A DNA stretch of 64,000 nucleotides. Source: Ptychodera flava (Eukaryota > Hemichordata > Enteropneusta > Ptychoderidae). Shown piece by piece: positions 14,440 through 48,421 of the stretch (its first letter is position 1; every line of letters begins with the position of its first letter). The notes below the pieces were generated by a model that saw only the letters and a list, made by a program, of their open reading frames with translations, did not search any database and was not told the origin of the DNA. The stretch is taken from NCBI RefSeq assembly GCF_041260155.1, contig NC_091944.1:12899272-12963271 (forward strand), read 5' to 3'. A program made the translations under genes and the position numbers.

Positions 14440-17400
14440 ATGTATGTATGTATGTATGTATGTATGTATGTATGTATGTATGTATGTATCTATGTATCTA
14501 AGTATCTATGTATCTATGTATCTATGTATTTTTGCATATGTGTTGCGGGGTTGGTTTGAAACTTGGCAGGCAGGTACGATATCAGAAAGTACAAACTTAC
14601 AGCTCAGTACTTATCCAGTATATGCTATCCTCAGTGAAGGCGATGTCAAATGGTCTTCTGCCTTCACTTGTTACAACTTCACGCTCTGACGTAGCTAAGT
14701 CAAGGCATTCAATTGTGGATACTGAAATGCAATTTGAAAGAGAGAAAGTAACTCTATAAATGTTCTTGATATTATGATTTGTGACGAAGTATGGTGTACT
14801 TTGTGGCAAATGATGCCGTCATGATTTATGGTAGTTCTATATGGTCACTCCGACATAGTTTTATTACTGGCAGGTGTCTCTTCAGAACTATCTACTATAC
14901 CCTTCTCGATCTTTTATAAGACGTCTCTTTTCTCTTGTTTATTGTCAACTGTGCAAAATGCACCTTTGGAACGTATGCCGTTTTTCTAGCGTGTCCAGCA
15001 TATTTTTTATAATGTAACAGTGGTACGTCATCGGGCTTCATTGCCGCATGCGGCAGTGCGCACTTTGTAATGAACAGACATATCAAGAAAGTTCTCACTT
15101 GTGAGGAAGTGAGTGTCTGCATTCGATGTATTGTAGTAAAAAGTCACAGCAGTTTGAACAATCTCTAATTATACAAACAAACGTATCATCTCACCTCCAT
15201 CGCACCAGCAAAGTTGGTCAGTATACTGATCATATTTCAAACCCGACAGAGCATCAAGTCCATCTACCAGTATAGTTGAATTCGCACCATCTAAAGTTGC
15301 CCTTTCGATGCCATACTCTGTCGTTGCCAGATCCACTCTGTGCTCATACCCCCAGTACATAAATCTATTGGAAAATATCTTAAAGTAATTAGGGGAAAAC
15401 AATCACGGTATTTCTTGAGTGGAATTTGCGCTGTGTCCTTCTTATCTCAGCAAATATTTTATATCGCCTTTCTTGCAGAATCAATATCACGGTAATACGC
15501 ACCTAGAAACAGAAAGTTTTTAAGCTTTTGCTCAATCCTTCCTCGCGAAAACCTTAAACAACTCGCCTCGTAACCTAATATACAATTAGGTGTCACCGTA
15601 TAGACTATGTATCAAATACTCAAATTATCTCCATTAGGATGGTTAAGTTTTCGATTTCAAAACGTTTTCAAAACAAGAAGATGGTAAAACTTCATTCAGT
15701 CCATTACGGTATTATTAAAAAAATTGTAATTCAAAATATTCATCAATGATGCGCGCATTCCAGATAAAGCACATAAACGTTCAAAATAATGTATATTTTT
15801 GTCGTTCCTTATGAGTTAAATCGAACCATTTTACTTATTACAAGTAGCAACTTACTTGGCTTCTCTATTCAATAACATTTCGTTGTACATTTGTCACGTG
15901 TTTTGCATTTCGAAATGTTAACGTTGTCTGTATGAAAGGTCTTACGATATTAATACTAATTAAATGGTTTTATACTTCCTTTTTATCTACATGCCTCGAC
16001 AGCGTATAAGCCTTTATTTTGGTACTTCTTACGTCATAGGGATGAGTAACTCTAATGGTCTGATGTCAGTAATACTATCTTGCTAGCTTAGAGCTACTCA
16101 AGTCCTGCAGTTGCTGTGCACAAAATGCTTATATGATCAAGCATATATCAAGGACTACCAAACTTGACTCTTGCCTTTGCTGAGATTAACTACAACATTG
16201 ACAACCTGCAGTCGCCAAACAAGCAAATATGGCCTCACCCTGCGTCTGGGTTTACTGCGACAGCTAGGGGGTCACGTCGTTCTGTATCACCCAGCAAGTC
16301 CAAAGTGACCGACGAACCATCCAGTGAGGCAGACGCAATAAGTTCGTGCTCATTATCAGCCCAGTAGACATTGCCATTGACCCAATCAACGGCTACATCT
16401 GTTGGTATCTCCACTCCTAGACAATGGCAAAACACAACATTAATCCTTTTGTAGTGGCTATTCTTTTTAGAATTGAAAGGGGTCTATCTAAAGAGTTTAT
16501 GTCATCTCAAAGACAATCACGGTACTTTTAGTGTTTTGAAGAATACTATTCATCCAATTTATTCTTAAAGAGGCACTCCCACTTTGTAACATTTTTAAAA
16601 CACTTTGTAACATTTTTAAAACACATTTAATGCCAACGGTCGATATTTGACTTGGCGACTGCGCGCGGATCGCGAGATATCGATAAAAACATGTCATTTC
16701 CCGAGCGTTTTTTCACATCCCGAAGTTTTACGATCGTTCTAATTTTGACTCGAAATCCCCCGAAGGTTTGTTGTCGGTGTGTGCTGATTGACGATATTCT
16801 AGGGAGTCTACAATAAGTTCGAACTGACGCAATTAATTTACTTCCCACTGCAAAGACTTTATATACAGCATTATGCCTTTACCTCAGGTAAGTTTTTAAA
16901 AACTACTCCTTAGTTTTTGTCGTTTTCATTATTCTAAATCGGTTGTATTATATTTTTAACCAATACCACATAAAACATCAGTTTTTACATGTCAAATATT
17001 AGCCTCCTCCGATGACTACATTTTGTCGTCTGCCACACAGTACGCCGCGCGCGTGGTATGCGCGCGTGGCATGCGTCTATGCATATCACGCGGCGGCCGC
17101 TATGTATCAACCGCACGTGACTGTGCTAGTCACCTTTGCCAATTCTGGTGGAATCAGCAAAAATTGTTTTTCGTTTACAGGCCAAGTCAGTAAGACTCAG
17201 CTTTCTCCAACAGGCCATGACCGATCACCGACGCCAGTGGTACTGTGGCGTATACAGCAGCGTCAGCGTAGACTCGTACTCCATAGCTTAGTTGACAATG
17301 GCCCCAGTGCCGAACGTTCGATGTTCGGAAGCTGAATTTAGGTGGGCCACCGGAATACAAACTTTTACTTTTTTGAAGACATGTTTTTATCGATATCTCG

Positions 17401-18953
17401 CGATCCGCGCGCAGTCGCCTCGTCAAATATCGACCGTTGGCATTAAAACAATGTGCTTTAAAAATGTACCAAGTGTGAGTGCCTCTTTAATATACGATTG
17501 ATGGTGAAGGAACAGAAGTCATTAAAATAGATGACCAAGCATGAAAGGAACACACTCCTTGACATGGTGACCATATTATCCTATGTGTGTGTCTCTCTCG
17601 GTCCCACATCGCAATTCTTCACTTTCCATTGAATTTTAAATGCATAGAAATGATTCTGTTTCTGTTCAATACAAATATGTTCTCTTTTTGATTAACACAA
17701 GAGAATCTGCAAACTTCCGAACTATAACTACGCTAGAATGCAAGATTGAACTATAACCAATTGTGGACCAATTGTGACTTTTTAAAATTCACTGTATTAA
17801 TCATCAATCACCTGTCTCAACTATGGTTTCCTCTTCTGTAATCTTCCCGTCTTCCAGTTTACCACGAAAAATGGCATTCTGTTCAACACTCGACCAAAAT
17901 AAGTAGCCACTGGTACAATCATAGTCTATCCCATAGGCTCCATCGCTCTGGGATAACATCTGTGGATCACCGCCAGCCACGATGCTATATATTCCACTCA
18001 GTGAATCGCTGTAAAATATCTTAACTAAAAATAGAATGGTCAAGATGGTATTAAAAGATCGTTATGTTAAAACTAATTACAGCGATGTGCCGTCTTCAAA
18101 ATAAAACCGGATCTCGCAACCAATGCAACGACCAAAAATCCATCTTCAGATTGCAACTGCCATTTCACCTTTTCTAGCCATCATGATATCGTCCTATTCA
18201 TGGAAAGGATATTTTCACCGATAAGTATGATATGTTGGAAGATATCTGCATGTTAAATCGAATAACTCATCATGTGCAGAAATGAAAATAATATCACTGA
18301 TAATAATTGAATAGAGAGAACAACTGTCCTTACCAGTACATGTTTTACCATCTGCGTTCAGTGCAAATCCGGTTTCACAGAGACAATTGAATGAAGCCTC
18401 CGTATTTTTGCAGATTTGTTCACAGCCGCCATCATCAGTCATGCATTCGTCAATATCTGTGTGCGGAAGGAAGAACAATTGTCGCTGTTAGAGTTTCCGT
18501 CCTAGTTCGTGTATACGATTTCATTCCGTCTGCGGGAAAAAGAATGCCAATATTGCCCGCTCATTATGATTAACATCCGGGACATATAATAACCTCATTA
18601 CGGTATAACCATCTACGCTGACCCATTGCTTGGCCCGTAAAGGATGAGACCGCACGACAAACTCCTGATGAATTCTTCATTGCAGAGGTATTACCACTTC
18701 TGTTTGGCGTTTGCGTAAAGTCTATAATCCACTTGATGTGAAGGAGCTTGCAGCTGTTGAAAAGTTGCCTTTGGATGTTTGTAATTTTGCATTCCAGAGT
18801 TTTAGTATTCAGAAGGATAAAGATTCCCTTCCGCCGCTAGTATACAATACATGGTCCACAAAGGACATCAAAATGTCCTGTCAACCTTCTAGACCCAGTG
18901 ATGCCTTGGTACCTGGGTCTCTCAAGGGAAACTTTCTGTAAACATCTGATTAG

Positions 18954-28000: not shown

Positions 28001-31000
28001 ATCAAACTGACATGACACGGTCGCAAACACGGCTATTAGGGGTCATCCTGGCCATATTATTATTCACGATAATCCTAGGGGGTTTTCTACTGACTATGTT
28101 TGAAAGCACTCTAATATAAACAAATTTACACCAGATTAATGATTTGTACAGTTAGTGTGCAGGTACACCTAAACAACCGTTCATGTTTAGTTGTACGATT
28201 GGACTGACTTCCTTGTATGTGACATAGTATTTCTTGCCTAGAGTTTATGTTTATTAGACATCTGGCCATCATCGATAGTGTACTGTTATTGTTACTAAGC
28301 AGATGTTTTTCCTCGTCGTATTAATGTTTCGTCTTGTTCTGCCCTCAAAAAATGCCAAGGTACATAAAAAAGATGCACAATGTCTAGTTTCTCCATGTAC
28401 ACCAAACTCAAACAACTGAAAGGGATTTAGTGGACTCCGTTTTTAACGTTTTGTAATCATGAATGCAGTCTTTTGTTAATTAACCACGTGATTGCCAATT
28501 ATGACAAATAAATACCACAGGACAGCCATGACGACACCAAAAACAAAAATACATACATCCTTAAGTCGCGAAATATCTCTATCACCACGATATTTTAAAT
28601 TTGCCTGCGATGCTCAAATATCAAATTAGCAGCTTATTTTGCATGTCATATTTCATAACCAACATATTCTGCAGCTGAAATTGATTCTCCCCGTTCCCTG
28701 AATATTTAAATACTCCTCAAAGCAAAGGGAACGTGACGTTATTTTCTTGACATTATGGTTTATAACTTTGATTTGAATTTGCAAACTTCGGTAATAGTAT
28801 CAACTCATCTGGTAAAGCAATTTCTTCCAAATACATGATGTGGACCAGCGTTAGACACGTAATAACATAACACTTTCTCGTGAAACGTTACCCAGTTTTC
28901 CCACGAAGTACAAATACACAGCTAGAAAACTACAGGCAGATTTCAGGACATGCCTGTAACAGGGTGTGTGCAGTACCTGTAACAGACCCTGAGAAACAAC
29001 CTCTGTTACAGGACCTGAAAAACTGGTCAGATTTCAGGGCTGTGTGGACAGGTCTGATTCAGGTCTGGTAGTACAGGACTGTATACAGTGCGAAAATTTC
29101 TGACTGTATCCAGTACTGTGAACACAGCACTGAAACATGGATGTATGCACATGACTGTGCCCAGTGCTGAGTTCACAGGGCTGTTACAGGACCTGAAAAT
29201 TCGCTAGATTTCAGACATGTATTCACAGGTCTGAATCAGAACCGGTAGAACATGACTGTATACAGAGCGAAAATTTCTGACTGTATCCAGTGCTGACTTT
29301 GACTTTGATAGTGGACATTTCCAGTAGGTTTACATGATTTGTTTATTTGAAAATTACCAAGATATTTATCGAAATTCCAATCAATATGATGTTCGTTTTT
29401 TAAGCATTCTTCGGTTTGCCTGTACAGATAATGCAATCATGTTCAGTACAATGACCAATGTAAAAATAGATCATTTCACAAGGAACTCACAACACTCACA
29501 TTTGCACTCATCACACATTTTCAATGTAAAAAAACATCGACCATCAAAGGTATGGGGAACAATAATAAATATTTATTAAAATGTTGCAAATTACAAACTA
29601 TAATCAAAATTAACATCAGACTGGTAGAACCTTTCCAGCTCAGTGACGCTGGCGGCCAGACGCGTTCTCCAAACACTGTAGGCCTATGACCTGAAAAAAC
29701 CGTGGTGGCGTGGGTTTTCTTCTCTGACGAACTTGAGAATGAAATGGAAAATATTATGCAAACTACCAACAAAGGAAGGTCACATTGCTTCATGCATAAT
29801 TGTAGAGATACCTAAAGGTAATAATCAGTGGTTATTACTATATGAACATGATGCGAAAGTTTATATACATTATTAATCTTATGGAATTTCCTGTTTAAAG
29901 ATGGACAATCGTTGAAATTGAAAGTAATGTCATTTCTCTAAATCGTTGTAATTATTATCAAAATGTGTAATAAAATATAGGGGTTGCCGTGTTTGTGAGA
30001 TTCAAGACTATGAATTTTAACATTTATGAGAAAAAATGCCGAGTCAGCATTTCTTTTACTGATGCATTTTCCATGGACGAAATTCGATGCCGTTTGTCTC
30101 AAAATCAAGCGCGGTGATAGTATCATTTTTATTTGATGACAATTAATCTTTTTTTGACTGAGCTTTGTACAAAATTTCATGAAAATGACAATAGTAGAAG
30201 TTGCTTTTCCAACAATTTTCAATGTAATCCTATGGAAAGGGACAAATTCCATGCGCGCGTAAGGATCATGCATCCTTAGGCCTAATGTCTTTTAAAATAC
30301 ATTTTCTATAAACCCGACCGCAAGTTATGCCTTCATCAACTCCCACTTGGTAACATTTTTTAAACACATTTTTTTAATGCCAACGGTCGATATTTGACGG
30401 CGACTGCGTGCGGATCACGAGATATCAATAAAAACATGTCATTTCCCGAGCGTATTTTTCACATCCCGAAGTTTTACGATCGTTTCTGATTATGATCCGA
30501 AATCCCCCGAAGGTTTGTTGTGGTGCTGATTGACGATATTCTAGGGAGTCCATAATAAGTTCGAACGACGCAATTTTACCTCCCACTGCGAAGACTTTAT
30601 GCTTCACTTCAGGTAAGTTTTTTTTAAAACTTCTCCTTAGTATTGTCGTTTTCATTATTCTCAGTCAGTTCGATTATATTTTTAACCAATACCACATAGA
30701 TATTAGTTTTTACGTGTAAAATATTAGCCACCCCTGATGACTACATTTTGTCGTCTGCCACACAGTTATGCGTGGTTCGATACGCGGCGGCCGCTATGTA
30801 TCAACCGCACCACGGTCCCTCCACGGGACCGTGACCGCACGTATCTGTGCAAGTCACCTATGAGAATTCTGGTGGAATCAGCAAACTTTGTCTTCCGTTT
30901 TTTCTCTGAGTCAGTAAGACTCGGCTTTGCCCACGGGGCATGACCGATCACCGACGCGAGTGGTACTGTGGCGTACAGCAGCGTTAGCATAGACTCTTGC

Positions 31001-34000
31001 TGCGAATCCGTACTACGTAGCCTTTGCCACTTGGGTAGCTTGGTCATTGGAGTGGCTACTCCCCACTCGTACTCCCAAAAGAACATGTCAAGGGGTGGCA
31101 GGGCTCGTTTTCGCAGCAACGTAGACTCGTACTCCATAGCTTATTTGACAATGGCCCCAGTGCCGAACGTTCCATGTTCCATGTTCGGAAGCTGAATTTA
31201 GGTGGGCCAATGGAATTCAAAGTTTTACTTCTTTGAGGACACGTTCTTATCGATTTCTTAGACGTATTTCACACGTGCTTGCTTCATTTTAAGTAATTTT
31301 CACTGAAACTGTAAATGGAATCACTCCCACTGGTCTTGGGTTCATAGTTGTGCTGGTTTGTCCGATTTCCGCGTCTTTGTAGCCTACGTGTACGGTAGAT
31401 TGCGCCACAGGTTATCGTAACGTTGCTTGGATAGTCGTTCGAGGCGGGCGGCCGCAGGTCGCCGTTATACTTGGAAAAAACACAGTCCCTCTATCTATGG
31501 ATAGAGGGACTGTGGAAAAAAGAGACGGCGACCTGCGGCCGCCCGCCTCGAACGACTATCCAAGCAACGTTACGATAACCTAGTACCTAGTACCTGTGGA
31601 TTGCGCTACGTGCCGACAACTTTTCACTATCATTTCAGTTCTCATGTACAAAGCCGCCTACTCAAGACGAGCAAAATAAATTTTTAAAAAAGTAGTATAT
31701 ACTTGTATTTCATGTATCGTATTATGCAACTAAGCTCCGTAAGGAAATTTTATTGCTCTTTTTTTGACATTTTTCTGAAAGAACGATCAATATTCATATG
31801 ATATTGCTGCCTCCTTTGTGATGGCAAATACGTCATATTGCACATGCGCATTCCCGAGCATCCTCAACGATGAAGGATCGACCCATGCAGGACATACCAG
31901 GACATACTACATGTAATTAGTAGTACTTCTCGCTCATGACTGTCAGAGTAATTCCCAAGCGCCCCGCACACACCCGTGGTCTCTGACCAGGAGCAGTGTC
32001 ATTCGCTGGGGAACTAAAGTATGTCGTCAGCGGTCACGACTGCAGTGGCTTATGCTAGCTCCGAGTTAGCGTCCTGCGTCGCGTCATCGTCGTCCAAGCC
32101 GTGGCCCTGCGTGCGCGTACAGGTACCGGTCTGTGTGTTCCGGCAGACAAATAGACATTGATTTTTGACATAGAAATTGATTTTGACTGTGTGATGTGAC
32201 AGTGAAGGGACGAGGTAAGCCTATGCGTGAATCCACAGGGAACACACACGTCTATGTTTTTGTTGATGATATCGATGGTGGCTAACAAAATCAAGCAACA
32301 CATCATTACTTCGGTGTTGTAACTAATAGTATTCAGTGCTTTCTCCCAAATGGCATTGATTTATGTTGTTTGTCTATGTGACCCGGGAAGAGGAGGAGAA
32401 ATGCTACTGTACTGTACCGTACTGGACTAAATTCTTACACCGGCCGGCCACGCCTCGTCCCTCCCACCATGGAAATATAACCCACACCACAGTCCTTTGG
32501 TCGAGGGACTGTGCCCACACATTGTTCCCATGTACACGTGTGGCTTTGAAGTGCTCAGACCGAAGCTTCCTTCTATTTACATAAGTTACATATCCTGCCA
32601 CTGTCTTTGGGATTCATAACTATGGCATTATACTATAATGTTTTCATTTAAATTTTTCTAACACTTAACAGGTAAACATTGATTGTAATGACACCGACCA
32701 TCCATGGGATGCTTTCTGTGAAATTTGCATGAAGAATTTCCCTACCCACAGACATCTAGTCAGACATCTAATCTTTTAAGTGTCACTCATCAGAGGCAAC
32801 TGGAATTGACTGCATTGGATGATGTACCGTCACCTACCAGCTCTAATACTCTTTCCCAGAAGTCATTATCTCCAGATATTTGCACCGATTGCGAGATTTA
32901 TTCTAGCAGTGTGATAAATCCGGTAAGATGATTGTGGTACAGTAATATTTTCCACGTTAGAAGATATCAATCCACTTAAAGATAAATTATTTTGTCTCGC
33001 ATTTTAATTTCATGAAGGAAACCTGCATAGTGAATAGCATACCTCACATGACTCATCAAAAAACACCTCATCAGTCATTTTCTTAGTTGGCCTGGACACA
33101 TTATTTTATTTTTATTACTGAACTCTGTTTATTTGTAAGTTTTGAAATCAATTCCTGCAGTGCATTCTGTTTGGTTAGGCATGTCCCACTGTGCCTGTCA
33201 AACCCCAAAACTTGAACGCATTTCTTTCTGTTCATTGCATGCTCAAAGGGGATGGTGGCAGTGTCAGTGCAGTGCTAGACTCTTACGTCAGTTCCGCCTA
33301 TAATCAATGGTTTTCAAATTTACCAAAATTATACATGTAGAAAATACAAATATACTATTTTATTTTAGGGGCAGTTGATTGTCTTAATTGGGCAATTTTT
33401 TCTTCTAAAAATCACTTTTCATAATAATTATATTGATATGTTGCAATGAGGATATTTATTACTGTATTAGACCTGAAAATTTTGATAAGTAGGTTTGGAG
33501 AAAAAAAATGGACCAAAAATCACAAAAATTGCCCCCAAATGAAATGCATGTAACTGCAAACATTTGTCTTAATTTCAACATATTAGAAAGGTAACACACA
33601 TTTCTGTCAATTTTGATTCAGAAATTTCAATTTTCAAATTTACATGTCGTACATATCTTTTAAAATAACCCGTTTAATGACATGATTTAGATATGATCAA
33701 ATTATCATGTAATCTAAAAGAAATTTTGTATAGAACAAGCCAATCAAGAATGCTATTATTTCAACTATTTTTTCATACAGTTGTTACCTCGTTTTGATTA
33801 GGTACAATGTATATGGGAGCTGACAATGACATCATATTGTCACTATTTTTACTAAATTTGATAGATTTGTACGGAAGTGCAAGGATGTGAGGTCATGAAA
33901 ATGGCTAATTCCAATCTATATTTACCATTCTAACTGGAAAGGCTTTTTTGGGACCCATTTTTTTCTCAGAATTGGATTCAGTTTTCAAACATTTTAGCCA

Positions 34001-40000: not shown

Positions 40001-43000
40001 GCCGGGCAGATCGTCCATGTAGCCGACACGAACACAAAGTGTCTGTTTAGCGGCTACCAAAAACTATTAAGAATGAGCTTACAAAATCACTATCAGTTTC
40101 GCTGGGAACATATTCGATGGCTTGTTACACAACTGTTACCAGATTTCAGGTAACACTGTTTACCACACGATGGATCTTTATTTAATACAGTAACCTATAG
40201 AGATAGCTGATTGATATCGTATATAAGACAGGTGCCTCTACGGCGGTAAAACTAATAGTTTATCCCTATGTAAATCCGGTCCCCCGAGAGTTGAAATGTC
40301 CGACTTCTGCATGGTCACCGCGCCGTGCAGTGTAGCGACAATGATATGATTGCAATTTCGTTTGAAGTTCGTTTACATGTATGTTAACGCAAATAAGGTG
40401 AAAAATATCAATGTTTGCCAGTATCTTGTTATACGGGACGAGATTGTGCTGCTCTTGTACTGCGTGAACTTTGATCGAAGTGCGTTGGCCGTCTTTTGAT
40501 TTTGAATGTCGAAAATTGCATATGTAACCTCTCCTAAAGCCTTGTGAACTGCGATTTGTTTGCATTTTTTCACGATTTTACTTTCTAACAAAAATAAGTT
40601 CACGTAAAATGTACTGATAGATGCGTAGGGAAGTTTTATTACTCACAAAATTTGTACTGTGTGTACAAGTTTGAACAATTATTATAAATAATGAACGGTT
40701 GCTGCTCTCATAAAATTGCCGCTGCTTGGACGTGCATCTATGTGTCATAACCTTCCAAGAAACAAACATGATGTAATTTACTGATATGAGTAACACTGGA
40801 TTCCCTTGTAGTTGATTTCCTTGATGTTCTGGTTGTAAGCTTACTCTCTCCCTTACATGGCGATGTAAAAACTGCTCAATTCACTTGCTCATTCCGACAT
40901 AAACAACAGTGTACTAGTTTATCAACATATCATGTAGTGAGTAGAATTCAAAGAATATCCATATGTCAGAAACATTAAAATGAACACAATATGAGAAGAT
41001 TCCTTTCACAAAAAGATCAACTTCAAGTGATACTTTTGAAGATTTGAAACGAGTACGTATACCCTACTTCACACTCGTCAGTCTTACGTCATCGACAAGT
41101 CACCCACTGCGTCGGCAGGCTTGACGTCATGGACGTAGACTTGTCAATCATCACGGAAGTCGCGAACATGTATGATCTGTCGGGTTCAAACGTTTCTGTG
41201 AACATGAACAGAAATTCTCAGTATCGACAAAGAAATCGTCAAAAAAGAAGTTGAAAATCGTGATGCTAACGTAAACATAATTTTGTATCCACTTGTGCCA
41301 TTCCATGTTACAGGGTTGCGTCGCCAGCCCTGCCACTCACTCTGCTGTGCATTGTTGTCGCCGTCGACTAACAGCAACGTCTAACCATGGGGATACTAAC
41401 ATAATTTAGTCGGAACTTGACTTTGAGCTTTAAACTACTTGATCACTTCCCGACCTCCTTATACGAGAAAGAAAATCATCTAATTTTTACTACTTCACAT
41501 ATCTTTTGTGTCGGATCCACTGTCCACAGAATGTATGTATGTCGTGATTGTACCGGAAATATATTTGATCTTACATTACTCATAACCAGTCGTCCTGACA
41601 ATCCTGACATACGTCAAAGTTTTTAAAAAAATTACGAAAATACTGAAAAGTTTTCTAATATTATGAAAAATAGTGTTGCAAAGTGTTGGCAATGGCGTGA
41701 TGGTGGGAGGCAACCGACAGCTATAAAGTTACAAGTAAATACAAATATATTTCGACACTGATATGTCCTACGATCTGGCTGGCAGCTTATCAATCTGTGC
41801 GATCTGTGGCAAAGTGCCACGGATTTATATCGCGTTAGTTTCGTAAATGTCGCAGCTACAAACTAAACTTACAACATTCCATAGATAGCGCAGAATGTGG
41901 GCGCAGATCGATAGCGCAGAATGAGAGCGCAGTTTGATAGCGCAAATTGAAATGCGCTAGCGCAGTTTAGGGGCGCAGACTGCCGATTTCAGACCTCTCA
42001 CATACCTGGGTGATGGGGCAAATTTTCGTCATTACAGTAGAATGAATAACAAGAGAAACAAAAAATCAAAATTAAAGCTGCAAGCAGCGTTGTAGGGGCC
42101 GAGCAGCTCGCATAGTTGATGAGAAACATAATGCGTCACCTTGAGATCTGCAATTATACCAAACATGAAGGTTTTTGTACTAATTGTTACTCAAGTTTAG
42201 GTTTATACGTATATTTGAGGTCAAAGGGTATAGCTCTGTTGGTTACTGAGTTATGGACAAATATGTATATTTGAGGTCAAAGGTCACCGAGGTCACGTGA
42301 CATTTTGTCAAAAAATTGTATTGCTAAGTTATCCCTATATACCAAAAATCAGACCTCTAGCTCTATTGGCTCGCTCAAAATTAGATATGCGCATAATTAA
42401 TGAGGTACAATATGTGGCGTCATAAGGTGTCCCATCATACTATACATGAAGGCTGTAGCACTTGTGGTTACTGAGTTATGGACAAATATGTATATTTGAG
42501 GTCAAAGGTCACAGAGGTCACGTGACATTTTGTCAAAAAAATTGTATTGCTAAGTTATCCCTATATACCAAAAATCAGACCTCTAGCTCTATTGGCTCGC
42601 TCAAAATTAGATATGCGCATAAGTAATGAGGTACAATATGTGGCGTCATAAGCTGTCCCATCATACCATATATGAAGGGTGGTAGCACTTGTGGGTACTG
42701 AGTTATGGACAAATATGAATATTTGATGTCAAAGGTCACCGAGGTCACGTGACATTTTGTCAAAAAAATTGTTTTGCTAAGTTATCCCTATATACCAAAT
42801 ATCAGACCTCTAGCTCTATTGGCTCGCTCAGAATGAGATATGCGCATAATTATTGAGGTACAATATGTGGCGTCATAAGCTGTCCCATCATACCATACAT
42901 GAAGGCTGTAGCACTTGTGGTTACTGAGTTATCGACAAATATGTATATTTGAGGTCAAAGGTCACCGAGGTCACGTGACATTTTGTCAAAAAAATTGTTT

Positions 43001-46000
43001 TGCTAAGTTATCCATATATACCAAAAATCAGACCTCTAGCTCTATTGGCTTGCTCAAAATTAGATATGTGCATAATTAATGAGGTACAATATGTGGCGTC
43101 ATAAGCTGTCCCATCATACCATATATGAAGGGTGGTAGCACTTGTGGTTACTGAGTTATGGACAAATATGTATATTTGAGATCAAAGGTCATCAAGGTCA
43201 CATGACATTTTGTCAAAATATCCGAGATATCTGCGTGAACGGATGGACTCACGGATGGACGAACAGACGGACATGACCCAATCTATAAGCTCACTGGACT
43301 TCATCCGTGGGGACTAAAAATTGTGTCACTGCATCCTTTTTGCAATATGAATACGATGAGAAACTAAATTTTTATTTTTGTGGCCTTATACATGGCAGTC
43401 TATGGAGATCTGCCGTATACATTGGAGTCTATGGACGTGTAAACTAAAAATATGCAAATTTCACCACGATTTGCCCAACTTTGGGAAAGGTCACTCCTAT
43501 GCACTTCCATACCAAGTTTCAAATCAATCGGACTGGTGGTTTCAGAGCAGGAGATTTTTTGACCAAAAATGGGAGAAAATTACAAAAAATTCATGAAAAA
43601 TAGCAAGTCCAAGATACTGACCCAAGATGCGCACAATCATTTCATGTCAGCCCAAAGTACTTACATGCTAATTTTTCATGTAATCTGCTCAGTGGTTATT
43701 GAGTTTTTTCAATTTTGACTGTTTTTACATTTTTTCACTTAATTTGCATATTTTTGGCAATGACAACTTCATTTGAACAAAATCTCATCTACAGCCCATC
43801 ATCCATGTACACACCAAATATCAAGATGAATGTACAGCGGTTTTGGAGTTTTTGATGTTGACGGACAGACATACAGACATACAGACATACAGACACACAG
43901 ACATACAGACATACATACATACAGACATTTCCTAGCCTATAAGAATAGCTTCCATTGCCATATATACATATGGCTATGGGAGCTAAAAATCAGTGAAACA
44001 CAAATGGTAAATAGTACTATCACCAGCTGCAAATATTTAGAGGGGCGGCTCAGTAGAGTACATGGATAATAATAGGTCGTGCAATAGGCTTCAAAGGCAA
44101 ATATTTTTTTGAAACAATCATACTTGTGCCATTACTATCCCTATGGGCATTATAGGGCATGGCATAGTCTTTCTCCAGGCACAGTTCTTCATGCTTGCTT
44201 CCGATAATAGAGCATGCAACAGGAAACTCCAAGCCTGGCTAACAGGGCCAGCCCAAACATCAATATTTCCTTTCTTTTAATGTTTTAAGCTTAAAATTAA
44301 AAGCTCAAAATATTGACCTATATCAGCTTTGCAGTAGAAACCATAACCTCATTCCATAGCAGCCATAATACCTTATGTTGAGTGTTGCTGTACGTATGTA
44401 AAGCACACCGGAGTAAAGTTCAACCCTCTAATAATGATGTATATGGTGAGAGGATATTACACTTGTAGCAATCTGCTCATTTAAATACTTAATTGTGTCT
44501 GCACAACATTTCATCCCCAAAAGTAGGATTTCTTGGGTGCTACAGAGCAAACATTTTCAATGCAGAGTTATAATTAAGCAATGAAGCACACCCAGCGATG
44601 GTATACCACGAGATTTTGACCAGTTCTCGACATATATGCACGAGCGATAGCGAGTGCATATATGAAGTGAACTGGTCAAAATCGAGTGGTATACTGTCGC
44701 GGGGTGTGATTTATTGCTATTATATCATAACAGTATATTGAAATTCTGGCGTGGAACGTCAAAAATGGATTTTTGCTCAAGCTGAGAGCTCACACGTATG
44801 CCAGCCGTGGTATATCACCAATATACCACGGTTCTTTTCGCGTCTCGACCAATCAGATCGCTGTATTTGCGCCATCAATATACTGGTATGATATAATTGT
44901 ATTTATCACATGATAAGTAACGTGTCTGAGTATGTGGAACTTGTGGTGGTTACCCCTATAGTTTGTTGCATGCACTGGGAAATCATAAGATCTCCTGATG
45001 ATTTTACCAGTGCAAGAAACAGACTGTATAGGTAGCACCACAGGTTCCACACCCAAATATATCTCTACCCTACAGAAACATATTGAGCACTATGCATTGC
45101 CTGAATTAACACCTAACTACCGTTTGTTAACTATTGCTAAATTTGGTTAACATTTTTGTTCAGTTTGTCAACTGCACTTTCTACAGAAACATATTGAGCA
45201 CTATGCATTGCCTGAATAAACACCTAACTACCGTTTGTTAACTGCTAAATTGGTTAACATTTTTGTTCAGTTTGTCAACTGCACTTTCTAGTTCTAGTGA
45301 CTGAATAGATGTCCTTTTCAGTACAGCTCATATATGTCTGAGATGCATTGTTATTGTTCACTTATGAATTTTACTAGACTAAAATTCATTTGTCAATTCA
45401 TGTGATATACATACATTATACAGGCTGTGTTTATAAGATGAATATTTTGACTGGCTTTGGGCAACAGAACAAGCAACACCACTTGATACAAAAATAAAAC
45501 TACTATAAACACACCAAAAGTTACATCTACTGCCCTTTAATCCTTTCACCACCGTGGTTTGTCCCAAATCCATTGTTTTCTATGATAAAGTGGGACCTCT
45601 ATACAGGGAACTGCATGGGGGTGGAAGGGTTAAGGCCATTTGATTGTCATACTGATGTAACAGGAATTTTGTGTACTTTCATTTCAGGATCTGTATGGAA
45701 TACTTCTAAGTCTTCAAGATAGAAGATGACAGCTGGTGTCTCTTGAAAACCTTTCACCCAATACACAAATATGACAAATTTGGTTGCTCTATATTTAGAT
45801 TGTGTGGTTGCAAACTGGTAGCAGCATCCACATTTCTGGAGGGTGCTTCATTTCACCACTGTTGTGAAAAGACAATTTGGAAAATGGACAGTTTATTTTC
45901 CAATATGACACAAGTTATCCGTACTATCGCTTGAATAATTTCATATTGTAGTGACACATTGGAATGCCTTGACTGCATATTGCAGAAGATAACTGATACA

Positions 46001-48421
46001 GACTCTTTTGGACAGTTGATGAAAGGTGTATTTGATGAGGTTAGAATGACCAGTGTTTAAAAAGACTGACAATATGATGCAATCCAGAAAGTTTATACAA
46101 GTAAACATAGCACCAGTTTCATGTAAATACTTGTAAGTGTATTTCTGTCTGAATAAAATTTCTACTGGGAATATATCTGTGTCGTTTGGTTTTTGGCTGA
46201 TTAAAAGTATTCAGGCTTTTTTCGACATCTTTAGTGAAAACATGTTAATTCCTGTTCAAAAACAATAAGAACATTAAGCATTCTGTGTACAACTCAAGTC
46301 ATAATAACCACAGCATTTTCAGACTCTGTTATACCACTGTGCAAACAACACCGTATACAGTCCTGTGGATACAGATGCTGTGATGGGCAAAAATTTCAGA
46401 CCCTGCCACAGAGCTGTGTACACAGCACTGTATACAGTCCTGTGGGTACAGGTGCTGTGACAGGCAGAAATTTCAGGCCCTGTTACACTACTGTGCACAC
46501 AGCACTGTATACAGTCCTGTGGGTACAGGTACTGTGACAGGCAAAAATTTCAGCACCTGTTACACTACTGTGCATACAGCACTGTATACAGTCCTGTGGG
46601 TACAGGTGCTGTGACAGGCAGAAATTTCAGGCCCTGTTACACTACTGTGCACACAGCACTGTATACAGTCCTGTGGGTACAGGTACTGTGACATGCAGAA
46701 ATTTCAGGTCCTGTTACACCACTGTGCACACAACACTGTATACAGTCCTGTTTATCAGATACTGTGACAGGCAGAAATTTCAGACCCTGCCACAGCACTG
46801 TGTACACAGCACTGTATACAGACCTGTACATCAGCCCCTGACACAGCAATGGGACGTCTTTGCTGACACAGTCCTGTGCCACAGGGTTGTGTCAGGGCCT
46901 GTGCAGGGCCTGTCACAGGGGCGAAATTTTTTTTGCTGTGTACCCCTCAAAGCCTTAGCAGGTTTATAATACATGACTATTTAAAATCCGAAAAGATGTC
47001 AATCATCAAAGGCTTGAATCTTAATAAAGGTAAGTACGACACATCTATTAAAATTGGGGAGAAATCTGGCCACCATCACCTGTCAAATACAATGTCCGTG
47101 TATACCATCAAAATAAACATATATGATTGGCTTAAATCTAGATAGCGCGTAGAAAATCAAGTAAATGATAGTACCTTAAAGGGAAACCTTCGTGGGAACT
47201 GCGCCTGTGCGAGTTTCTTGTTTACAAACAATGTATTTTGTGCATGCTATCCAGATGCGCCTCATCATCGTAGCAGTAACATTTAGATTATACGATGTAG
47301 ATTATGATAGATATGTTTTAACTTTATTACATCAATCACCATCGTACCTTGGATACAGTGTCTGAATTGGTCGTATGGGTCCCATACGACCTTTGAGCGC
47401 AGTTCCGACGACTGTATCCCTTTAAAGGCTTCTTTTTATATTTGAAAACTCAAAACAGCAAAAAGGTCGGGACTATATGCCGTACCATTTCGCAATAAAT
47501 ACCATATCAGGTCTTTCATGATCAGTGCCGGCGAAGCACTGTTTTTCGACGTACAGTACTATTGGTGACCCTAGCCTTGTGTACACATCTGTAATATGCT
47601 GGAAACCCTAATTTGCCCGGCAATTCTTGCGGTCTTTGTTGATGCAGGAGGATACTCATACCTGATCGAGACTTACCTATAGAGCCTTTCCTTCCTGGTA
47701 TAAATAGCACCATTAGGACAATGGCTGCCATGGCTACGAGGAGGATCAAAACCCAACACACAACTCGGCCTTTAGATCGTCCTTTATCCTGATGATAAAA
47801 AGAATCACGGAGTGCCATCCTTAAATAAAGTGTCGTCATTTCATAAACACCGTACTTGTACTAAAGTAGCAGCTTTTTGTTCCCAGAATTGAAGATGACA
47901 AAACGCGAATGCATTCGATCCAAAGCAAGCTTTGTTCTTATCTTGATTTTCTGACTTGGATAATGCATCATTATCATCACTACCACCAACACATCATCAT
48001 CATCATCATCATCATCATTATCATCATCATCATCATCATCATCATTAGTTTTCTCCCCGTCGACCTTACCTTCTCTCTTTCCCAATGCTTACACCGATTA
48101 CTGAACTTGCATGCTGAGACCCGAAACAAACCTTTACAAGTAACCTGTGAAACTTCACTATCACCAGTTTGGTTAAATGTTTGTCTGATACTCTCATTTC
48201 GGACACGCAGATGCATGTATGACTGAAATTGCCATGTTTTACGGCTAAAATCGGGCCATTGTCTAAATTGAGCATGCTAAGATATCAAAATATTGAAAAA
48301 CTGAATGAAAATACCTTAATAAGCTAAACAAACGAACAAAAAACCAAGCGATCATGCAGCTTACCTCCAGACTTCCATCCTGATCAAGCAAGCCATTCTG
48401 TTCGGCGTTCGGATTCGCCAT
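14155..48421 (-). CDS. Gene A: type II membrane protein with eight EGF modules and a YWTD beta-propeller (15 exons)
   Basis: Exons in transcript order: 48365-48421, 47677-47788, 26493-26630, 23949-24056, 21826-21948, 21076-21198, 20431-20553, 19674-19796, 19170-19292, 18334-18456, 17812-18024, 16239-16416, 15195-15364, 14601-14721, 14155-14287. All phases agree and give 656 codons including TAA. Order: 19-residue tail; basic flank and anchor (about 28-50); EGF 1-8 (about 57-384, most calcium-binding DIDEC type); six-bladed LDL-receptor class B propeller (about 385-650). YWTD-strand equivalents are FYSD, FWSS, YWAD, YWGY, CWCD and YWIS. No signal peptide, no LDL-A module and no second membrane segment are seen. 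In LDLR/LRP/EGF-precursor proteins the propeller sits N-terminal to a type I anchor; here the order is reversed. I infer an extracellular ligand-binding role. The weakest link is the 21-kb intron 2, which could hide exons or separate two genes. Confidence 0.82.
14392..14528. repeat. Compound (TCTG)n(TATG)n microsatellite
   Basis: About 11 TCTG units, then about 12 TATG units, then TATC variants. It lies in the intron between gene A exons 14 and 15. Confidence 0.95.
14601..14721 (-). CDS. Gene A exon 14: propeller strand YWIS
   Basis: 121 bp, phase 1 in and 2 out. It contains STIECLDLATSEREVV, then RPFDIAFTEDSIYWIS. Donor gtaagt. Confidence 0.82.
15195..15364 (-). CDS. Gene A exon 13: propeller strands YWGY and CWCD
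   Basis: 170 bp, phase 2 in and 1 out. It contains FMYWGYEHR, then IERATLDGANSTILVDGL, LSGLKYDQYTDQLCWCD: a full class B repeat. Confidence 0.87.
16239..16416 (-). CDS. Gene A exon 12: propeller strand YWAD
   Basis: 178 bp, phase 1 in and 2 out. It contains IPTDVAVDWVNGNVYWAD, the most typical YWTD repeat of the gene, then ASLDGSSVTL and LAVAVNP. Confidence 0.88.
16565..17490. mobile_element. R1 element, copy a, with ~120-bp terminal inverted repeats
   Basis: It starts TTAAAGAGGCACTC and ends with the exact reverse complement of that string. The inverted similarity runs about 120 bp, through ATGCCAACGGTCGATATTTG and GCGCGCGGATCGCGAGATAT. TTAA is at both tips. The left repeat carries an extra ~21-bp internal duplication. 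No transposase is seen, so it is non-autonomous. It sits in gene A intron 11. Confidence 0.88.
17812..18024 (-). CDS. Gene A exon 11: propeller strands FYSD and FWSS
   Basis: 213 bp, phases 1-1. It contains VKIFYSDSLSGIYSI and, about 40 residues on, YLFWSSVEQNAIFRG. The ~40-residue spacing matches LDL-receptor class B repeats. Confidence 0.83.
18334..18456 (-). CDS. Gene A exon 10: calcium-binding EGF module 8
   Basis: 123 bp, acceptor gcacacag, donor gtaagg. DIDECMTDDGGCEQIC, then NTEASFNCLC and ETGFALNADGKTC. It is the most diverged of the set and sits directly before the propeller, as EGF modules do in LDLR/LRP proteins. Confidence 0.88.
18958..19036. repeat. (AT)n microsatellite
   Basis: About 38 AT units between gene A exons 9 and 10. 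Confidence 0.97.
19170..19292 (-). CDS. Gene A exon 9: calcium-binding EGF module 7
   Basis: 123 bp. DIDECSTDANDCEQIC, then HNQQPYFNCSC and DEGYLLNDDAKTC. Confidence 0.87.
19674..19796 (-). CDS. Gene A exon 8: calcium-binding EGF module 6
   Basis: 123 bp. DIDECTTETNNCEQIC, then NNQEPFFNCSC and IEGYLLNDDGKTC. Confidence 0.88.
20220..20363. mobile_element. Short MITE, GGTAA-flanked, in a gene A EGF intron
   Basis: Inverted ends GAGCATTCGTTATTTAC and its complement, G-rich inside, GGTAA directly repeated on both sides (20215-20219 and 20364-20368). The homologous intron at about 20.99-21.01 kb lacks it and shows a single TGTAA at the matching place. Confidence 0.82.
20431..20553 (-). CDS. Gene A exon 7: calcium-binding EGF module 5
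   Basis: 123 bp. DIDECTTEANDCEQIC, then LNQEPFFNCSC. It shares a long stretch of downstream and upstream intron with the exon 6 and exon 8 neighbourhoods. Confidence 0.88.
21076..21198 (-). CDS. Gene A exon 6: calcium-binding EGF module 4
   Basis: 123 bp. DEDECSTEANKCEQIC, then LNQEPFFNCSC. It is nearly identical to exon 7, including flanking intron sequence. Confidence 0.88.
21826..21948 (-). CDS. Gene A exon 5: calcium-binding EGF module 3
   Basis: 123 bp, phases 1-1. DIDECSTEANDCGQIC, then NQEPFFNCSC and a GYLLNDDGKTC tail. The aromatic before C4 and the Asn after C3 complete the calcium-binding EGF consensus. Confidence 0.88.
22230..22741 (+). mobile_element. R2 element, copy a, with terminal hairpin
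   Basis: About 510 bp, matching 55400-55905 in opposite orientation. One end is a ~60-bp-arm hairpin around 22620-22730 with arms such as GAAAGCCAAAATTAACGGGC. No coding content. Confidence 0.85.
23949..24056 (-). CDS. Gene A exon 4: EGF module 2, shortened last loop
   Basis: Starts DIDECTTEAGDCEQIC. The exon is 108 bp against 123 bp in its neighbours, and the C5-C6 spacing is 7 residues (CNEGYLNTC) instead of 12. Splice sites and frame are intact. Confidence 0.82.
26493..26630 (-). CDS. Gene A exon 3: EGF module 1
   Basis: Acceptor ttttcag, donor gtgagt, phases 1-1. Pattern C-x6-C-x3-C-x9-C-x-C-x12-C (DPCTFNNGGCQHNC, then VECSCFEGY). It lacks the DxDEC calcium motif of later modules and resembles the first EGF of LDL-receptor-type pairs. 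Confidence 0.85.
26767..27249 (+). pseudogene. LINE reverse-transcriptase C-terminal fragment
   Basis: A 160-codon open frame containing APPYLTEVFHRIT, then FSFRAASTWNTIPPSIRNSS and FFTFKVKLRDYLF. This is the tail typical of animal non-LTR retrotransposon ORF2 proteins (established pattern: PxYL ... FSxRxAxxWNxLPxxIR ... FKxxLKxxLF). It is followed by a simple AATAAAG/TAATAATAG tail at 27246-27275, and no RT core lies upstream, so it is a 5'-truncated copy. Confidence 0.8.
28910..29300. repeat. ACAG/CTGT-rich degenerate repeat
   Basis: Two similar ~85-bp blocks at about 29030-29112 and 29210-29297 share the string GCGAAAATTTCTGACTGTAT. The style and words (GTATACAG, ACAGG, CCTGT) match the 77-bp array at 46.3-46.9 kb. 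Confidence 0.7.
30342..31260. mobile_element. R1 element, copy b, right end truncated
   Basis: Same orientation and order of blocks as copy a (shared strings include ATGCCAACGGTCGATATTTG, CACATCCCGAAGTTTTACGA and TGACTACATTTTGTCGTCTG). The right inverted repeat stops at about 31260, and there is about 120 bp of extra internal sequence near 31000-31120. It hosts the tiny palindrome at 30811. Confidence 0.85.
30811..30833. mobile_element. Tiny palindromic insertion 1 (23 bp)
   Basis: Arms CACGGTCCC and GGGACCGTG around TCCAC, flanked by a perfect 7-bp repeat ACCGCAC at 30804-30810 and 30834-30840. R1 copy a has one ACCGCAC (17110-17116) and no palindrome at the same place. Confidence 0.88.
31410..31580. 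repeat. 171-bp hairpin with perfect 56-bp arms
   Basis: Left arm 31410-31465 and right arm 31525-31580 are exact reverse complements (outer end GGTTATCGTAACGTTGCTTG; inner end GCAGGTCGCCGT). The 59-bp centre contains tiny palindrome 2. Arms are GC-rich with a NotI-type GCGGCCGC. Confidence 0.95.
31481..31514. mobile_element. Tiny palindromic insertion 2 (34 bp)
   Basis: 15-bp arms, CACAGTCCCTCTATC and its complement, around TATG. Flanked by perfect 7-bp repeats GAAAAAA (31474-31480, 31515-31521). It sits in the loop of the 171-bp hairpin. Confidence 0.86.
32021..32122 (+). CDS. Gene C exon 1
   Basis: Reads MSSAVTTAVAYASSELASC and on to CVRVQ, 34 codons, then donor gtaccg. Upstream 31.3-32.0 kb is CpG-rich, consistent with a promoter. 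Confidence 0.42.
32021..45729 (+). CDS. Gene C (tentative): unknown protein nested in gene A intron 2
   Basis: Proposed exons 32021-32122, 32752-32922, 35072-35107, 36451-36570 and 45688-45729 all join in phase 0 (157 codons including TGA). Support: an ATG in a CpG-rich stretch, GT/AG at every junction, coding-like composition in exons 2 and 4 (YVWYLLKKRDPSVPPRYKIK), and an AATAAA at 46152. I recognise no domain. Exon 1 is low-complexity (Ala/Ser-rich). An alternative second exon from 32672 reads a C2H2-like finger, and an alternative terminal exon may lie at 34435-34515. The 9.1-kb last intron is full of repeats and may hide exons. It is transcribed against gene A. Confidence 0.42.
32488..32513. 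mobile_element. Tiny palindromic insertion 3 (26 bp)
   Basis: Arms CACAGTCC and GGACTGTG around a ~10-nt centre. Flanked by perfect 7-bp repeats CCCACAC (32481-32487, 32514-32520). Confidence 0.86.
32672..32781 (+). CDS. Alternative gene C exon with C2H2-like finger, ends in stop
   Basis: From an acceptor ending at 32671 the phase-0 frame reads DAFCEICMKNFPTHRHLVRH, matching C-x2-C-x3-F-x5-L-x2-H, and then LIF-stop. The fourth metal ligand is missing because of the TAA. It overlaps exon 2 in another frame. Confidence 0.35.
32752..32922 (+). CDS. Gene C exon 2
   Basis: Acceptor tttccctacccacag, donor gtaaga. 57 codons, Ser/Thr/Leu-rich (VTHQRQLELTALDDVPSPTS, then SPDICTDCEIYSSS). Phase 0 at both ends. 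Confidence 0.48.
32923..35071. other. Gene C intron 2, AT-rich
   Basis: Unusually AT-rich from about 33.3 to 34.3 kb. Apart from the possible exon at 34435, I see no genes or obvious repeats. Confidence 0.45.
34435..34515 (+). CDS. Possible alternative terminal exon of gene C
   Basis: Acceptor ttgactgcag followed in phase 0 by TSMLYQLQSLLRSQDISGIT, then DASSVA and TAG. It could end a short isoform after exon 2. Nothing else supports it. Confidence 0.25.
35072..35107 (+). CDS. Gene C exon 3
   Basis: Acceptor ttctgctag, 12 codons TPQEDDYVEERD, donor gtaaac. A second donor at 35142 would leave phase 1 and hit a stop in exon 4, so the earlier one is chosen. Confidence 0.38.
35251..35283. repeat. 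Solo end of the TTAACCCTTTCACC MITE family
   Basis: Contains AAACCATGGTGGTGAAAGGG, the same terminal string as the full copy at 58088-58180. The other end is absent. Confidence 0.6.
36310..36347. mobile_element. Tiny palindromic insertion 4 (38 bp, diverged)
   Basis: Arms CACGGTTACTCTA and TAGAGTAACCGTG around a 12-nt centre. Flanks TTTTAGG (36303-36309) and TTTTGGG (36348-36354) match at 6 of 7 bases. It shares the CACGGT tip with copy 1 but a different interior. Confidence 0.7.
36451..36570 (+). CDS. Gene C exon 4
   Basis: Acceptor cattgtag, donor gtaatg, 40 codons (GESLQKYVWYLLKKRDPS, then IIDSLPGFEKPYK). Both splice sites are clean and the frame is open. This is the most convincing exon of the gene. 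Confidence 0.5.
36841..42002. mobile_element. 5.16-kb region bounded by ~120-bp inverted repeats
   Basis: Left end 36841-36965 and right end 41882-42002 are inverted copies at roughly 90% identity by eye. They start TGTGAGAGGTCTGAAATCGG and carry GCGC words about every 10-13 bp. TA lies outside both tips. I see no transposase inside. It contains a nested element at 38368-39297; otherwise 37.0-38.3 and 39.3-41.8 kb hold nothing I recognise. Confidence 0.72.
38368..39297. mobile_element. Non-autonomous TIR element with internal tandem repeats
   Basis: Ends are inverted: GTTCAGTTTTTACGGC then G-rich at the left, C-rich then GCCGTAAAAACTGAAC at the right. The arms continue as C-runs with the phrase GATGACCCCCC. 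Inside, 38.72-39.15 kb, are about seven copies of a ~70-bp unit with words ATAAAGTCAACTTTATT and GGGCCGCC. Confidence 0.82.
42250..43220. repeat. Five-copy ~226-bp tandem array
   Basis: The anchor word TTATGGACAAATATG recurs at 42251, 42476, 42703, 42929 (one mismatch) and 43156, spacing 225-227 bp. Copies are about 95% alike by eye. A diverged half unit precedes them from about 42090. Each unit carries AGGTCA-A-AGGTCA, three bases, another AGGTCA and CACGTG. Confidence 0.93.
43220..43995. repeat. Interspersed repeat tails with (ACAGACAT)n
   Basis: Two adjacent segments each end in a GACGGACAGAC-type stretch followed by a GGGGACTAAAAA or GGGAGCTAAAAA tail (43310 and 43978). The microsatellite runs 43862-43926. 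It looks like the 3' ends of non-autonomous elements. Family unknown. Confidence 0.6.
44600..44694. repeat. Hairpin with ~26-bp arms
   Basis: Arms 44600-44626 and 44669-44694 (GAGATTTTGACCAGTTC against GAACTGGTCAAAATC). A second inner dyad pairs TATATGCAC with GTGCATATA. Probable MITE. Confidence 0.8.
44719..44897. mobile_element. MITE-like hairpin, ~22-bp outer arms
   Basis: Outer arms 44719-44740 and 44876-44897 (ATTATATCAT ... CAGTATATTG) are complementary with small mismatches. An inner hairpin at 44805-44831 pairs CCGTGGTATAT with ATATACCACGG. Confidence 0.75.
45071..45291. repeat. Tandem duplication, ~111-bp unit
   Basis: Two head-to-tail copies beginning ACAGAAACATATTGAGCACT and ending TTGTCAACTGCACTTTCTA, differing by a few bases. 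Confidence 0.93.
45537..45633 (-). mobile_element. ~97-bp TTAA-ended MITE
   Basis: TTAA at both ends, inverted ends CCTTTCACCACC and GGGGGTGGAAGG. Similar to 58088-58180 in opposite orientation. Confidence 0.75.
45688..45729 (+). CDS. Gene C terminal exon
   Basis: Acceptor tttcatttcag, then DLYGILLSLQDRR and TGA. The 3' UTR would run to the AATAAA at 46152-46157. Confidence 0.38.
   Translation, partial: DLYGILLSLQDRR
46152..46157 (+). promoter_or_regulatory. Polyadenylation signal, gene C
   Basis: AATAAA about 420 bases past the proposed stop, followed by a GT-rich stretch (TGTGTCGTTTGG). Confidence 0.4.
46317..46925. repeat. 77-bp tandem array rich in ACAG/CTGT dyads
   Basis: GTATACAG recurs at 46353, 46430, 46507, 46584, 46661, 46738 and 46814: period 76-77 bp, about seven units. 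Each contains several short inverted words (ACAG, CTGT, GTATAC). Confidence 0.93.
47176..47425. mobile_element. 250-bp TTAA-ended MITE in gene A intron 2
   Basis: Starts TTAAAGGGA and ends TCCCTTTAA, with GGAACTGCGC inverted just inside both ends. An inner perfect dyad GGTCGTATGGG-T-CCCATACGACC is at about 47374-47396. Confidence 0.78.
47677..47788 (-). CDS. Gene A exon 2: membrane anchor
   Basis: Acceptor atcatcag, donor gtaagt, phase 0 in and phase 1 out. It encodes DKGRSKGR and then a strongly hydrophobic run, VVCWVLILLVAMAAIVLM, extending through VLFIPG. Four basic residues lie before it and three after it (RKGS). Confidence 0.83.
47990..48048. repeat. (ATC)n microsatellite
   Basis: About 19 trinucleotide units in gene A intron 1. 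The poly-Asp and poly-Met frames across it are artefacts. Confidence 0.95.
48365..48421 (-). CDS. Gene A exon 1: start codon and cytoplasmic tail
   Basis: Reads MANPNAEQNGLLDQDGSLE and then donor gtaagc. The start is the only ATG that leads in frame to this good donor, and length and phase match exon 1 of gene B. E7-QNG-LL12 is an acidic dileucine-type signal. Confidence 0.78.

Follow-up and report, generated by a model that had tools for sequence, protein, structure and literature searches.

Short palindromes between 7-bp duplications in Ptychodera flava: likely excision footprints of a P-like transposon

The window analysed here is a stretch of 64 kb (64,000 nucleotides) from the hemichordate Ptychodera flava, and all positions refer to it. 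EGF and LDL-receptor domains among its open reading frames point to an animal gene. No transposase family was detected in the 80 of 110 window reading frames that were scanned (frames of at least 75 aa), the 30 left out being mostly simple-repeat or overlapping frames. An RNA gene was set aside since the window has no Rfam match at the gathering score, and prokaryotic REP-like repeats were set aside given the animal-type EGF and LDL-receptor domains. The window also contains two related repeat copies, a foldback insertion and three short palindromes flanked by perfect 7-bp direct repeats. The palindromes had been picked out in a first-pass annotation of the sequence and are all present (see table). 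All three are located within 1.7 kb, which has a probability of about 0.002 for three uniform points in 64 kb if computed post hoc. Either hopping over short distances or a target region that is open might account for such clustering.

Coordinates of the palindromes, their target-site duplications and associated repeats. Positions are those of the window except for the bacterial copies in the last line.
Feature	Position	Strand	Remarks
Target-site duplication ACCGCAC, left copy, palindrome 1	30804..30810	.	Present once at the empty paralog (17110-17116)
Palindrome 1, 23 bp, end stem 9	30811..30833	.	CACGGTCCCTCCACGGGACCGTG
Target-site duplication ACCGCAC, right copy, palindrome 1	30834..30840	.	
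Target-site duplication GAAAAAA, left copy, palindrome 2	31474..31480	.	
Palindrome 2, 34 bp, end stem 15	31481..31514	.	CACAGTCCCTCTATCTATGGATAGAGGGACTGTG; divides 17+17
Target-site duplication GAAAAAA, right copy, palindrome 2	31515..31521	.	
Target-site duplication CCCACAC, left copy, palindrome 3	32481..32487	.	
Palindrome 3, 26 bp, end stem 8	32488..32513	.	CACAGTCCTTTGGTCGAGGGACTGTG; readable as 8 + 1 + 17
Target-site duplication CCCACAC, right copy, palindrome 3	32514..32520	.	
Foldback insertion, palindrome 2 in its loop	31406..31598	.	Tips CACAGG/CCTGTG; 8-bp duplication GATTGCGC at 31398-31405 and 31599-31606
Repeat copy carrying palindrome 1	30344..31258	+	
Related repeat copy, empty at the palindrome 1 site	16601..17480	+	ACCGCAC once, at 17110-17116
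Bacterial copies of the 24-bp palindrome CACAGTCCCTCATGAGGGACTGTG	L091 4626-4649 and L092 3787-3810		Abutted by CATG

The tip common to the three palindromes is CACRGTCCCTC, which is longer than the version described initially. All 11 bases are found in four of the six arms, while the right arm of the palindrome at 30811 has nine and the left arm of the palindrome at 32488 has eight. The tips are the only common part. The interiors are unlike at all three loci, as are tip bases 12-17. The target duplication flanks the residue on both sides at each locus, and 7 bp is the longest exact abutting repeat in all three cases (lengths of 6-12 were tried). No shared palindrome was seen by eye around the three target sites. 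When the window is searched for exact CACAG or CACGG tips that span at most 5 kb and are bordered by exact repeats of 6-10 bp, only the three palindromes and the foldback are recovered. Hence, the window shows no element from which they could have been copied.

The two related repeat copies provide an empty site for palindrome 1. Positions 30344-30996 and 16601-17275 are 81% identical in an alignment with 8% gaps, and positions 31117-31258 and 17264-17398 are 87% identical. At the site of palindrome 1, the copy at 16601-17480 has a single ACCGCAC and lacks the palindrome. Removing 30 nt, corresponding to the palindrome and one duplication, yields the best match to this copy at eight of 120 offsets, namely those starting at 30804-30811, and these eight starts are equivalent across the 7-bp repeat. 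An insertion at the site of palindrome 1 is directly evident from this empty site, which is paralogous and not orthologous. The earlier proposal that the palindromes stem from transposition events that duplicated 7 bp of the target is supported, with an empty paralogous site for one of the three. For palindromes 2 and 3, the window offers no empty paralog, hence the case for insertion at these loci comes from the repeats.

Short palindromes between target duplications are known from the excision of the Drosophila P element. The P transposase leaves 17-nt 3' tails consisting of the element's own tips (PMC2895639), and excerpts of two further papers likewise describe 17-nt 3' tails following P element excision (PMC5466332; PMC11368186). 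Once end-joined, such tails read, between the two target duplications, as the left tip, then microhomology or filler, then the right tip (PMC2895639). Our counts cover only Table 1 of PMC2895639, where 66 isolates are tabulated while the text mentions 68 sequenced. In 37 of these 66 junctions, a palindrome of 25-44 bp with an end stem of at least 8 is located between intact duplications, and the remaining 29 junctions are not such palindromes. Both duplications are kept with at least 8 bases between them in 43/66, and palindromes of this kind with a length of 23-34 make up 23/66. An exact 17+17 join is absent from Table 1 and is found once in Table 3 of the same paper. Palindromes 2 and 3 fall within the published range of 25-44 bp, and palindrome 1 is 2 bp below the shortest.

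We suggest that the three palindromes are likely excision footprints of a cut-and-paste transposon resembling the P superfamily. A full element with CACRGTCCCTC tips would have been present once at each of the three sites. To release it, the transposase would have cut in a staggered fashion, some 17 nt into each end, so that the tips were left behind as tails. End joining of these tails by the host would have followed, with trimming, microhomology or a little filler, and the residue would consist of a duplication, a tip, an inverted tip and a second duplication. Scar lengths of 23, 26 and 34 bp do not exceed 2 x 17, although the palindrome lengths were already known when the 17-nt idea was brought in. 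Palindrome 2 would represent the full 17+17 join, and its two 17-nt halves agree at 16/17 positions. The corresponding figure for palindromes 1 and 3 is only 12/17, and these two loci require the assumption of trimming or filler. Palindrome 3 can be read as 8 nt, 1 nt of filler and 17 nt, and palindrome 1 as a trimmed join over GGG, neither reading being unique. The differences in bases 12-17 of the tips among loci require either subfamilies or filler. Like tips combined with unlike interiors at 3/3 loci would be expected if the joins had formed locally, whereas copied units would share interiors. Across this small sample of only three scars in 64 kb, two inverted tips with at most 17 nt each surround a junction that varies from locus to locus, and the split of palindromes 1 and 3 is not unique.

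The likeness to Drosophila P junctions includes the duplication on both sides, at most 17 nt per tip, and a join by microhomology, blunt ends or filler. The tips of the P element also begin with CA (PMC2895639), as do the window tips. The sequences are different though, with an 8-bp duplication and the tip CATGATGAAATAACATA in Drosophila P compared to a 7-bp duplication and CACRGTCCCTC in the window. The fly junctions are experimental and stem from Rad51-deficient males (PMC2895639), whereas the window scars are natural. The palindromes are probably natural scars from the excision of a P-like transposon with 7-bp duplications.

P-type transposases combine a THAP domain with an RNase H-like core. 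The superfamily is associated with target duplications of 7 or 8 bp, and the duplication is 7 bp at 3/3 loci in the window. Excerpts of PMC4168063 and PMC2775673 describe the Drosophila element Galileo, a cut-and-paste member of the P superfamily, with target duplications of 7 or 8 bp that are mostly 7 bp, as next to the window palindromes. Galileo copies are either full or two-TIR, their inverted repeats are long and their preferred target is GTANTAC, whereas the window contains bare tips at three unlike targets with no coding part seen. Judged by mechanism, a P-like origin is our best guess and membership in the superfamily is putative. The tentative link to P-like elements made in the first-pass annotation comes close to this reading.

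Duplications of 7 bp are also produced by hAT7 and Kyakuja elements, as stated in excerpts of PMC12730594. Either an element from a different superfamily that duplicates 7 bp, for instance a hAT7-like one, or gap repair after excision that broke off within the tips might therefore have made the scars or extreme deletions. Unique interiors would fit this explanation, as they would any local repair, and we nevertheless consider it unlikely. Excision of hAT elements leaves little or no tip. Had gap repair been interrupted, the pieces left should vary in size and mostly be larger, instead of keeping within 17 nt per tip in three of three cases. The Kyakuja families have no inverted repeats, again according to excerpts of PMC12730594. 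Dada elements, which generate 6-7 bp duplications and insert in small RNA genes, were considered as well, and Dada-U6 is described without terminal inverted repeats (excerpts of PMC3706591). Dada was set aside given the presence of inverted tips and the lack of Rfam matches at the gathering score in the window.

Alternatively, a transposase working in trans could have inserted the palindromes themselves as units of 23-34 bp. The presence at each palindrome of the two tips and of a perfect 7-bp duplication, the empty site of one palindrome and the post hoc clustering of the three are all compatible with such mobile units. Yet no interior is common to any two palindromes. P-type transposases need internal binding sites as well, for which a 23-bp unit has little room. 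The same anatomy is also shared by published excision scars (PMC2895639). We therefore regard the insertion of such units as improbable, and give slightly less credence still to a transposase inserting bare tip pairs of 23-34 bp with interiors changing at each move. Miniature elements (MITEs) resemble the window palindromes in having two inverted tips and a target duplication. MITEs are, however, described as many copies of one sequence in excerpts of PMC3573991, while the window palindromes have unlike interiors and lengths of 23-34 bp. Copies of the same sequence are absent among the three in the window, where the tips alone are shared. The suggestion that the palindromes represent the smallest moving unit of a transposon is hence unsupported. 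The related suggestion of two tips left by internal deletion holds for the two tips, and is refined here to excision at the donor site followed by end joining instead of a deleted element that then moved. Within the open-licence library searched, no paper on such 23-34 bp palindromes was found by title or abstract start, and among 15 papers that contain CACAGTCCCTC, no title concerns DNA transposons.

Chance or an assembly artefact is a most improbable explanation, having nothing in its favour beyond the few cases and being opposed by a Markov control, a same-tip control and the empty paralogous site. A scan of the window for hairpins outside low-complexity sequence, with exact stems of 8 and spans no larger than 80, returned 228 hairpins, four of which have an abutting repeat of at least 6 bp. 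Besides the three palindromes, the fourth is a self-palindromic artefact located at 31456-31534, GCGGCCGC. A set of 100 second-order Markov sequences yielded a mean of 0.03 and a maximum of 1 hairpin next to a 7-bp abutting repeat, compared to 3 real cases, the Markov sequences being poorer in hairpins (mean of 109 versus 228 in the window). This agrees with the initial view that three abutting 7-bp matches have a very low chance of arising at random. For an outside control, viral contigs were searched for same-tip palindromes in which both arms carry CACAGTCC (73 cases) or both carry CACGGTCCC (15 cases), and 69 of these 88 are distinct when flanks are included. An abutting repeat of at least 4 bp is found in 0/88 of these viral palindromes, with 3 bp in one and at most 2 bp in the other 87. 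The 17-nt tip CACAGTCCCTCTATCYA is present in two viral contigs that share the sequence around it, and neither locus carries the inverted second tip GGGACTGTG (0/2). The 11-bp tips form a palindrome at two places with near-identical flanks in one bacterial bin (see table). The abutting 4-bp CATG is itself palindromic and thus simply lengthens the stem. The bacterial palindrome was set aside as a relative of the window palindromes and is probably an unrelated bacterial repeat.

If the palindromes are indeed excision footprints, they would constitute natural fossils of transposon excision and host end-joining repair. The pattern of a tip, an inverted tip and a flanking 7-bp repeat could then serve to count past excisions genome-wide, and might reveal the cut stagger of a transposase without an experiment. 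Such an origin would also call for caution, in that short palindromes with target duplications should not be annotated as new tiny elements. Should the palindromes instead be mobile units, hardly anything smaller could be imagined to transpose in an animal.

The surroundings of the palindromes contain additional insertions. The foldback at 31406-31598 has perfect 57-bp arms and a DNA fold z-score of -23. The foldback was set aside as parent of palindrome 2 given its differing CACAGG tips and 8-bp duplication. Its right end shows an extra ACCTAGT-type repeat that is missing from the left arm (31398-31606). Of the two repeat copies, the copy at 16601-17480 carries inverted ends that are some 100 bp long, and a right-hand inverted end was not found for the copy at 30344-31258. 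The latter copy, which carries palindrome 1, also contains a 123-bp insertion at 30997-31119 with inverted ends TTGCTGCGAA/TTCGCAGCAA that is missing in 16601-17480. This insertion is flanked by a 9-bp duplication CATAGACTC/CGTAGACTC with an 8/9 match, a length that we take to be Mutator-like. Together, palindrome 1, palindrome 2, the foldback and the 123-bp insertion indicate that the stretch has taken several insertions. Elsewhere in the window, a tandem array at 42240-43218 comprises 4.3 copies of 226-bp units with 94% matches. A second tandem array at 46317-46827 is built of 77-bp units rich in CACAG/CTGTG-like motifs, and a lone CACAGTCC is located just past this array at 46867.
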